NCBI RefSeq assembly: GCF_000010345.1
Contig: NC_009663.1
Span: 682,001 to 746,000, forward strand
Source: Sulfurovum sp. NBC37-1
GTDB lineage: Bacteria > Campylobacterota > Campylobacteria > Campylobacterales > Sulfurovaceae
Length of the DNA stretch: 64,000 nucleotides
Direction: 5' to 3'
The notes below the pieces were generated by a model. The model had not been told where the DNA came from and made no database searches. It saw only the letters and a list, made by a program, of their open reading frames with translations. Each line of letters opens with the position of its first letter. Position 1 is the stretch's first letter. The translations under genes and the position numbers were made by a program. Positions 4,458 through 8,883 of this stretch are shown one piece after another.

Positions 4458-4997
4458 TTACAGTGACAGATTACTTTGAAAACGTGATGTTTTCGGAATA
4501 TCTTCACCCTTTGCAGTATAATTGTACTTCTTCTTAGCCTCTTTGACAAGTGCTTTGGGCATTTCATTGTAGACAGTGTTCATATCGGTATTGATGGTAC
4601 CCAGAAAGTAGGTCTTTCCTCTGCTTATTTTTGCAATGCTCTTGCTCCCGGACCCGTAACCGGCTTTCCCCCGACTGCACCCGTAATGTCCGCTCAGAGA
4701 ATACTCTTTGAGACGTACCTCGCTGCTGGGTGTCGGTATCTTCAACTCAATGAACCCTTTTTCGGGTTTCCTGTCGTGGAAATAGAGCTCATAACCCAGC
4801 GGCTCCTCTTTTGTGACCACTTCGATATGCCTCACTGCCCTTTTCCCGTCACCGTCAACGGCAATCAGTATGGTGGCTTTTCCTTTATAGCGGTCCGGGT
4901 TGGCATTGCTCACCGGAGTCAACGTGTCTGGTGTACATCCTGTTAGGAAAAGAAGTGCCAAAAATAGTGTGCCTGATACTGTTTTTTTTATGTTCAT
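4458..4997 (-). CDS. Putative lipoprotein, unknown function
   Basis: The preferred start (MNIKKTVSG) gives 179 residues with a type II signal peptide and lipobox LTGC near residue 21. The body is basic with a Gly/Ser-rich stretch (GYGSGSKS) and no recognised domain. A longer upstream start would bury the signal peptide and is disfavoured. It lies 18 bp before the phosphoesterase on the same strand and may be cotranscribed with it. Confidence 0.6.
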   Translation of the reverse strand: MNIKKTVSGTLFLALLFLTGCTPDTLTPVSNANPDRYKGKATILIAVDGDGKRAVRHIEVVTKEEPLGYELYFHDRKPEKGFIELKIPTPSSEVRLKEYSLSGHYGCSRGKAGYGSGSKSIAKISRGKTYFLGTINTDMNTVYNEMPKALVKEAKKKYNYTAKGEDIPKTSRFQSNLSL

Positions 4998-6733: not shown

Positions 6734-6906
6734 GGTGCTTCCTTTGTGATATATGGAGTTATAGAGTATTTTAGCGCAAGTTGATTAAGGGGTTTCCCTT
6801 GTTATCTATCACTGATTGGATTTTCAGTTATCTAAATAATTCAATAGTAGTCTGGCAACTGAATGCAACCGATAAATTGCTGAAGGCCCATGACTTGCTA
6901 TGCTGT

Positions 6907-7818
6907 TTAAGCTATAGTCGTTCTTTTCTTTGCACCTACAAGCCAATACGAAACAGCCAGGCCGACAATAACAGCAGCAATAATCAGCAACTCTTCTCCC
7001 TTCTCCGCCGAGAGAGAATAAATCAATACTTTTCTAATAAGTGCTGCCATAGCAAGCATAATGAATGCACCAATGGCAAATCCTTTGCCTTGTAAATGAT
7101 GGATTTCTTCATGAATTAATTCAATAGAAGCCCATAATACAAGTAAGCTACCAAGAACTGTCAATATCCCTTTTTCTATTTTCATATCCGTAAAAAAAAG
7201 TAAATAAATATCATATAAGAAAAGTCCTATGGCAAAAAATGCTACAAGTGCCAATGCCCCGGCCAAGAAGTAGTTGATGTATGAATTGAAGTTTTTCAAA
7301 CCAGATAAAATATTTTTTTCTATTTTGGAAAGAGACAAAAACTTGCCCAACTCTTCTTCCCTATAAGAACTTGTGAGTATATCAAGATTCATATCGATTA
7401 TTTTTTCAACAGCCTTAATTTCATCTATATGATGTTGTTTGTCTTTAAAATTTTTTTCTATGCTGGCAAGTATGAAGGTTCTAACATAAGTAAATGCAGA
7501 GTTGACATAGTGTGTAGGCAAACCAATTCTTACATGGATTTCGCCTATTTTGTAAAGATACATAAAGTAAGGCATATCATATTGCCCGCAAAAAAGGTTA
7601 ATAAACCACTCTTTGATTCTCTTCCTATGGTAAGCAATAATTTCTTTATTTTTTAAAAATTGAGCAGTTTTACCAAAACCCCATATATAATCATAAAACC
7701 CATCTATAAATTCATCAGCAAGCTGTTCCATACGAGGCTGCAGTTCTTTTAGTAATTTTGCTTCTTCTTCGGTAAACTGATAGTGGTCTTTTAAGTCTCT
7801 ATAATGTTGCATGTTCAA
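6907..7818 (-). CDS. Protoglobin sensor domain fused to PsiE-like membrane domain
   Basis: 303 residues. The N-terminal 155 residues resemble a protoglobin/globin-coupled sensor: an all-helical domain beginning YQFTEEEAKLLKELQPRM, with a candidate proximal His in YKIGEIHVRIGLPTHYV (near residue 95). The C-terminal 130 residues have four hydrophobic segments with a charged IHEEIHHLQGKG segment typical of PsiE (phosphate-starvation-inducible E) membrane proteins. Inference: a haem-based gas or redox sensor that signals through, or regulates, a membrane module. No kinase, cyclase or methyl-acceptor domain follows. The ends are ambiguous by a few residues only. Its low G+C contrasts with apt and rpiB. 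Confidence 0.8.
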   Translation of the reverse strand: MNMQHYRDLKDHYQFTEEEAKLLKELQPRMEQLADEFIDGFYDYIWGFGKTAQFLKNKEIIAYHRKRIKEWFINLFCGQYDMPYFMYLYKIGEIHVRIGLPTHYVNSAFTYVRTFILASIEKNFKDKQHHIDEIKAVEKIIDMNLDILTSSYREEELGKFLSLSKIEKNILSGLKNFNSYINYFLAGALALVAFFAIGLFLYDIYLLFFTDMKIEKGILTVLGSLLVLWASIELIHEEIHHLQGKGFAIGAFIMLAMAALIRKVLIYSLSAEKGEELLIIAAVIVGLAVSYWLVGAKKRTTIA

Positions 7819-7872
7819 TCCTTATTTATTAAGTAACAAAGTAACAGAGAGTAATCCCGAGTAACAGTGATC

Positions 7873-7903
7873 AGGTGACAACGACAACTCATTTCCTACT
7901 CCT
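7873..7903 (-). repeat. Copy of dispersed AGTTGT...TCACCT repeat
   Basis: Read on the minus strand this is GGAGTAGGAAATGAGTTGT, CG, TTGTCACCT. It closely matches the sequence at 42941-42970 and shares the GAGTTGT...GTCACC core with the longer repeats at 41873, 42841 and 43785, over 34 kb away. Confidence 0.55.
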
Positions 7904-8035
7904 CTTCAGCATACCATGCACAGCTTGTTGTGGTAGTCCCAATACTTTAGCAATCATATGCTGAGAATAGCCTTGTTCTATGGCTTGTAGAATTACTTTG
8001 TTCCGCTGTTTTATATCAGCGATATCTTTTCTCGT
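7889..8035 (-). pseudogene. RAYT-like transposase, C-terminal helix-turn-helix remnant
   Basis: About 48 C-terminal residues (TRKDIADIKQRNKVILQAI then EQGYSQHMIAKVLGLPQQA and VHGMLKRSRK). This looks like the C-terminal HTH found in some REP-associated tyrosine transposases and related DNA-binding proteins. There is no catalytic part: upstream the reading frame enters unrelated sequence at a degraded REP palindrome (8031-8060). It lies opposite to the other RAYT fragment at 8163. Confidence 0.45.
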
Positions 8036-8060
8036 TTGTACGCTGAGCGTGGAAATGCAT
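8031..8060. repeat. Degraded REP-like palindrome
   Basis: CTCGTTTGTACGCTGAGCGTGG followed by AAATGCAT matches the intact palindromes at 8533 and 8802 with several changes in the left arm. It separates the two RAYT fragments. Confidence 0.5.
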
Positions 8061-8162
8061 ACTCCACTAAAAAATATGACAAAGTGCCACATTTTCAACT
8101 CAATCACTACAATTTCAATATCATATCAAAAACAGATAAAGCAGTTTCTGAAGGAATCAAAC

Positions 8163-8513
8163 ATGGGAAGAAGTCGATATAAAATTGACATCGCTCAGAG
8201 CATGACAAAATTCAAGCGGTACACAGCAAGAGGAGTGCTAAAGTTACTTCAAACAAACAATGTGACAACCATTCTTGATCAGCTGGTATTTTATAAGAAA
8301 GCACACAAGTCTGATAGAGAGTACCAGGTATGGCAGGAGGGACTACAGCCTAAACTTATCCAATCAGATGCAATGATGGTTAGTAAGATCAACTACATTC
8401 ACCAAAACCCTGTAAAACGGGACTATGTGGATGAGGCATCCCATTGGCGGTATTCGAGTGCGAGGGATTATGAAGGGCAGAGTGGACTTTTGGAGATTGA
8501 GCGCTTTTGGTAG
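8163..8513 (+). pseudogene. REP-associated tyrosine transposase (RAYT), C-terminal part
   Basis: 117 residues from ATG 8163. The tail motifs KINYIHQNPVKRDYVDE and HWRYSSARDY are diagnostic of the TnpA_REP/Y1-like transposases, and VWQEGLQPKLI corresponds to the conserved WQ...Y/H block. The N-terminal HUH (His-x-His) region and the start of the catalytic domain are absent, so this is a truncated copy. It is flanked by REP-like palindromes at 8031-8060 and 8533-8553, the usual partners of this enzyme family. Presumed inactive. Confidence 0.75.
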
Positions 8514-8532
8514 ATTGGTGTGGAGGTTTGCA

Positions 8533-8553
8533 TTCCCACGCTCAGCGTGGGAA
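8533..8553. repeat. REP-like palindrome
   Basis: TTCCCACGCTCAGCGTGGGAA is a near-perfect inverted repeat 20 bp downstream of the truncated RAYT gene. It is the same family as 714-736, 8031-8060 and 8802-8830. Confidence 0.75.
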
Positions 8554-8576
8554 CGAGGAAAACGTTTAAAATGAGC

Positions 8577-8611
8577 AATCAAAAAGCTACCCGCGGATTT
8601 TTGATTGGTCT
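8577..8611. repeat. Hairpin-forming inverted repeat
   Basis: CAATCAAAAA and TTTTTGATTG arms flank a GC-rich loop (GCTACCCGCGGA). It could act as a terminator in either direction. The remainder of 8612-8800 is AT-rich and holds no gene that I can see. Confidence 0.45.
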
Positions 8612-8801
8612 CCTTTGGTTTGTTTATTATCTTCAGTAAAAAGTTTTGGGTCTGTTAAATTGTGAAATTCATTATATATGGACACCAACTAGTTAACCTT
8701 TCTGAGAATAGTGTTTTGATACTTAACTATTTATTAGGGGAACACTTTGTCCCACTATTACTTTCTTTTTCATATTAGTAGTATATCAAAAATGTCTTTT
8801 T

Positions 8802-8830
8802 CTCGTTCCCACGCTCAGCGTGGGAACGAG
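8802..8830. repeat. Perfect REP-like palindrome
   Basis: Arms CTCGTTCCCACGCT and AGCGTGGGAACGAG around a single C form a perfect inverted repeat, with flanking T-rich left and A-rich right extending pairing. It lies 54 bp downstream of the rpiB stop (transcription leftward), where it may also end the folD-lepB-rpiB transcript. Confidence 0.8.
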
Positions 8831-8883
8831 AAAAAGTTTATTTAAGAGAGATGTGTATTCCGGAATGACCGGATAGGGGATGA

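Follow-up and report, generated by a model that had tools for sequence, protein, structure and literature searches.

The known outputs of globin-coupled sensors are kinases, cyclases, phosphodiesterases and chemoreceptors (MCP). In HemAT, AfGcHK, DosC/YddV and BpeGReg, just as in the protein described here, an N-terminal protoglobin with a proximal His and TyrB10 precedes a C-terminal output, which is an MCP, a histidine kinase or a GGDEF domain and in none of these proteins PsiE. The full-length Geobacter GsGCS, whose globin (2w31) reportedly comes from the work of Pesce et al. 2009, is described as ending in a C-terminal transmembrane region; if this region is of the PsiE type, the architecture considered below would be wider, older and in part already described. 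PsiE proteins themselves are common, and we know of no activity described for them; the E. coli psiE gene is induced by phosphate starvation. Our literature search revealed no relevant paper pairing PsiE with a globin.

Here we analyse a gene that joins the two domains. It lies in a 64,000-nucleotide stretch (the window) of the Sulfurovum sp. NBC37-1 genome, which is a single 2.56-Mb contig. The first-pass annotation had described an open reading frame at 6907-7818 on the minus strand encoding a protoglobin fused to PsiE. The frame does exist, while its proposed start, TTG 7818, is probably wrong and should be replaced by ATG 7812. The TTG was ruled out both by the spacing of the ribosome-binding site and by the starts of relatives: the Met encoded by ATG 7812 is the start in nearly all of them, and purine-rich sites equivalent to AAGGA precede most of their starts. 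The position of AAGGA before ATG 7812, together with the start Met of the relatives, thus indicates a protein of 301 aa (Table 1). Its two-domain nature was clearly confirmed by Pfam, where both families matched far above their cut-offs: Protoglobin with 105.5 bits (E 3.5e-30; cut-off 25) and PsiE with 76.2 bits (E 3.1e-21; cut-off 23.9). Both motifs quoted earlier for the two halves, GEIHVRIGLP and IHEEIHHLQGKG, were found in the protein.

Table 1. Features of the protoglobin-PsiE gene (positions in the window; residue numbers are those of the 301-aa protein)
Feature	Position	Strand	Description	Basis
Protoglobin-PsiE fusion CDS	6907..7812	(-)	301 aa, start ATG 7812	ORF, ribosome site, relatives
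AAGGA ribosome-binding site	7819..7823	(-)	6 nt 5′ of ATG 7812	sequence
Protoglobin domain PF11563	7351..7806	(-)	residues 3-154	Pfam, 2w31 match
Tyr40 codon	7693..7695	(-)	distal Tyr B10, invariant	alignment to AfGcHK
His62 codon	7627..7629	(-)	distal position E7; four residues before position 66	invariant 62/62 + 28/28
His93 codon	7534..7536	(-)	putative proximal haem ligand F8	invariant 62/62 + 28/28; 2w31 alignment
Linker / continuous helix, globin helix H into TM1	7279..7350	(-)	residues 155-178	helix prediction, conservation
PsiE domain PF06146	6928..7278	(-)	residues 179-295, four predicted TM helices	Pfam, prediction
E231-LIH-E235-E-IH-H239 motif	7096..7122	(-)	presumed cytoplasmic end of TM2	conservation
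R260-K261	7030..7035	(-)	in TM3, presumed partner of E231	both invariant

The globin half closely resembles that of GsGCS. In the PDB sequence search, 2w31 was the closest solved structure (E 1.2e-41), the other matches being 5ohe, 8h17 and 1or4; the alignment with 2w31 ran without gaps from residue 5 to residue 159 and covered the SYREEE linker as well. The AlphaFold model led to the same protein, with 2w31 as the best fold match (E 2.9e-7) and other globins of globin-coupled sensors also matched. The His proposed in the first-pass annotation as the proximal haem ligand (in GEIHVRIGLP) is H93 at position F8. It pairs gap-free with His93 of the 2w31 chain and showed no variation in two partly overlapping sets of relatives, one comprising 62 proteins from a pattern search and the other 28 from an HMM search (the window protein and those of 27 loci). 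H62 at E7 and Y40 are likewise invariant; the Tyr of AfGcHK that aligns with Y40 is presumably at B10.

The distal side of the candidate pocket differs from that of GsGCS. While HisE11 (His66) serves as the sixth haem ligand in GsGCS (PMC4476040), position 66 (E11) is Ile in our protein and Ile, Leu or Val among its relatives, and the invariant His is found at E7, where both GsGCS and AfGcHK have Leu in the alignment. A GsGCS-like bis-His coordination via E11 was ruled out, residue 66 being aliphatic. HisE7 also occurs in four proteins from other Campylobacterota in which a globin is joined to EAL (L111, L113, L114 and L115; Pfam verified the EAL domain of L113 and that of L115), which share with the fusion both this subtype and the conserved segment after the proximal His. 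Their output is a soluble EAL domain, whereas the output side of the fusion is a membrane bundle. Since the HisE7 subtype is fused to EAL domains as well, it is used as an exchangeable regulatory module for sensing, to which different outputs have become attached.

The C-terminal half was expected from the first-pass annotation to be a four-helix membrane domain, and four long helices were indeed predicted. The first of them carries on from globin helix H with little or no break: the predicted helices span residues 125-160 and 163-207, and the SYREEE..FLSLS segment at the linker is strongly conserved. The AlphaFold model of the full-length protein is of moderate confidence (pLDDT 71, pTM 0.46). 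E231, E235 and H239 are invariant in both sets of relatives. E231 is also conserved in standalone PsiE proteins, which have no globin domain, and R260 matches their conserved Arg, albeit shifted by one position when E. coli PsiE (b4030) was aligned automatically; in the alignment with another relative (L070), both the Glu and the Arg were matched. E. coli PsiE thus has in common with the fusion its family and this Glu and Arg in TM2 and TM3. In contrast, E. coli PsiE lacks E235 and H239, which, like K261, do not vary within the fusion family. Within the bundle, H239 is the only invariant His, H234 being nearly invariant. Neither sequence profiles nor fold comparison gave a PDB relative of the PsiE half; the best match, ORAI (E 0.37), was not significant. 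Taken together, a Protoglobin domain above its cut-off with invariant HisF8 and TyrB10, and a PsiE domain above its cut-off with four helices, a Glu in TM2 and an Arg in TM3, suggest that the fusion belongs both to the globin-coupled sensors and to the PsiE family.

The two halves are not equally constrained. In the pattern-based set, the PsiE half had a mean pairwise identity of 85% and the globin half one of 73%; the corresponding values for the HMM-based set were 85% and 75%. The median synonymous differences were saturated (0.78-0.81), while dN was only 0.10 in the PsiE half vs. 0.19 in the globin half. Saturated synonymous sites combined with low dN point to purifying selection, strongest on the membrane half; recent transfer alone was ruled out as the source of the high identity by the same saturation. 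The greater conservation of the PsiE half suggests that it is an active module, so that the role of a passive membrane anchor is unlikely for this more constrained part of the protein.

The fusion gene is patchily distributed. A pattern search revealed 66 loci in Campylobacterota that encode relatives, most of them full-length. The survey of fused homologues proposed in the first-pass annotation found the intact fusion in 13 of 298 Campylobacterota genomes, representing 7 genera; all the strong PsiE matches in these 298 genomes were fusions except for one standalone protein (in G057). In the genus of the window, a full-length match was present in 17 of 61 genomes, one of these matches bearing an in-frame stop, and other genomes of the genus carry partial or broken copies. 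Copies broken by a frameshift or in-frame stops were seen at L065, L042, L059 and on contig C29 of G372, apparently showing repeated loss of the gene. In a genome without an intact fusion gene (G204), locus L192 retains at 4711-4830 a C-terminal remnant of 39-40 residues, 90% identical and located about 1.4 kb from apt.

The cross-family identity of the fusion (75-89%) exceeds that of RpiB (61-68%) and Apt (64-76%), and the most similar cross-family copy, at 89%, is closer than the copy from a different genus of the window's own family, at 77%. In the fusion gene tree, Sulfurovaceae and Sulfurimonadaceae labels are interspersed, those of the metagenome-assembled genomes being uncertain. DNA similarity to the nearest relatives ends at the gene borders (about 6895-7812). 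The gene is patchy and moves as a single unit; in our search, no fusions were found on plasmids or viral contigs.

Its location in the window was also correctly recognised from the outset as an insertion into an otherwise conserved apt-rpiB interval. In several genomes of this family, about 20-80 bp separate rpiB from apt, and the two genes are nearly contiguous across several of its genera. The closest relative (L143), whose RpiB is 97% identical, has an unrelated RelE-like toxin-antitoxin-like pair between the two genes, and its globin-PsiE gene is located elsewhere. We conclude that the rpiB-apt interval (6734-8883 in the window) probably behaves as an insertion-prone site. An outer-membrane-like ORF occupies the interval at L146. 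Between the fusion gene and rpiB in the window (7889-8513), there are fragments resembling a decayed IS200/REP-type transposase, namely an HTH piece at 7889-8107 on the minus strand and a C-terminal-like piece at 7980-8513 on the plus strand; Pfam gave only weak HTH matches for them.

The neighbourhoods of the fusion genes repeatedly contain genes of NO metabolism. Neither this recurrence nor the His at E7 nor the start at ATG 7812 figured in the first-pass annotation. At three loci (L020, L025 and L026), the fusion is the last gene of a norB-norD-norQ-norE-norF cluster, 14-54 bp after norF (the contig of L025 starts within norD), and the same norBDQEF order is found at L065, where the fusion gene is broken. 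NorB was verified against P. aeruginosa cNOR (3o0r, E 4e-194), and the other Nor subunits by Pfam. At L045, norB lies within 5 kb of the fusion along with Crp-type regulators and cytochrome c; at L060, norB within the same distance is accompanied by norD, norQ, a single-domain globin and an Rrf2 regulator; and L137 has a cd1 nitrite reductase and a norB-like COX1 gene within 5 kb of the fusion as well as a di-haem peroxidase close by. A single-domain globin is beside or near the fusion at four loci (L028, L051, L059 and L060), and a hemerythrin at six (L024, L027, L031, L033, L036 and L050). At least one such marker was found within 5 kb at 19 of the 66 pattern-found loci vs. three marker clusters, one of them norB/nirS, in a matched 400-kb control from the same genomes, a comparison in which the marker genes were picked after the neighbourhoods had been seen and related loci are not independent. 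Close cNorB homologues, present in 5 of the 298 genomes overall, occur in 2 of 13 fusion carriers vs. 3 of 285 non-carriers (Fisher p 0.016). Most fusion loci are not next to NO genes; this includes the one in the window, which has no NO gene adjoining it and belongs to a genome that lacks a close cNorB. Upstream of the fusion genes, we found no enrichment of canonical FNR, DNR, NssR or NsrR operators. As a separate observation, at L048 (322-2246), L049, L061 and L063 the fusion stands beside a conserved cassette encoding a DUF2249-like protein, a 414-aa membrane protein and a DUF59 iron-sulphur assembly protein. Neither Pfam nor the PDB gave a match for the 414-aa protein, which may be a so far undescribed component of NO or respiratory metabolism.

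To our mind, there is an even chance that the fusion is a membrane-anchored globin-coupled sensor, most likely for NO and possibly for O2, that acts through its PsiE bundle; we infer haem binding, the ligand, dimerisation, the direction of signalling and the output. The cytoplasmic protoglobin would bind haem via HisF8 (H93), with a distal pocket formed by TyrB10 and HisE7. A diatomic gas would then bind to the haem, most likely NO because of the nor/nir/globin neighbourhood, O2 being possible. Ligand binding would move the dimer-forming G and H helices, just as globin helices rearrange in other globin-coupled sensors (PMC8846402), and with helix H continuing into TM1 the change would pass to the four-helix PsiE bundle, where the charged cluster E231, E235, H239, R260 and K261 may represent the working site. 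The PsiE half itself would be the output, in place of a soluble enzyme domain. As the PDB holds nothing related to this half by structure or by sequence, its activity is a guess; most likely, it would seem, it gates the movement of ions or protons or controls a membrane partner involved in NO or respiratory metabolism. The stronger version, a gas-gated device in which NO or O2 binding to the globin directly switches the PsiE bundle (through ion/proton conduction or control of a respiratory complex), is put forward only tentatively.

The main rival to the sensor reading is a membrane NO-detoxifying globin, whose haem domain would serve as an NO dioxygenase, NO reductase or peroxidase, with PsiE anchoring it and supplying electrons, e.g., from quinol. 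The invariant TyrB10/HisE7 pocket resembles that of detoxifying globins such as C. jejuni Cgb, and the position directly after norBDQEF, as well as the adjoining single-domain globin and hemerythrin genes, would suit such an enzyme. However, the PsiE half lacks the His pair typical of a b-type cytochrome; moreover, there is no reductase domain and no consistently adjacent reductase gene, and the HisE7 subtype drives EAL domains elsewhere, although neither of the latter two points is decisive. We regard this enzyme as possible but on the whole somewhat unlikely.

The signal, too, may be another one. Characterised protoglobin sensors respond mostly to O2 (PMC8846402), and a hemerythrin or peroxidase gene nearby is as consistent with O2 as with NO, so that the protein could report O2 at oxic/anoxic interfaces, the NO-gene neighbourhood reflecting shared redox niches. 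Yet the tightest linkage is to NO reductase, and this in otherwise nor-poor genomes (close cNorB as counted above), which makes a sensor of O2 instead of NO quite improbable. Still less credible, and in our view very hard to defend, is a haem-less globin serving as a protein-interaction or stress-input domain like that of B. subtilis RsbR, in which case PsiE alone would be functional: the globin half does evolve faster than the PsiE half, but HisF8, HisE7 and TyrB10 are strictly invariant, unlike in RsbR, where the HisF8 position is occupied by Ala (PMC4476040). The original proposal of a haem-gas sensor acting directly via a membrane module is the one we favour as an inference, given the invariant pocket residues, the coupling of the same globin subtype to EAL in sister genomes and the very strong constraint on the PsiE half.

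The combination of a haem-sensor fusion with a recurring NO-gene neighbourhood hints at which signal the PsiE module likely answers. If true, the gas-gated device would give the PsiE family its first functional interpretation, and a membrane-embedded output would join the kinases, cyclases, phosphodiesterases and chemoreceptors on the list of globin-coupled-sensor outputs. The fusion is a putative membrane gas sensor of an unusual and testable kind in a sulphur-oxidising bacterium of the Campylobacterota.
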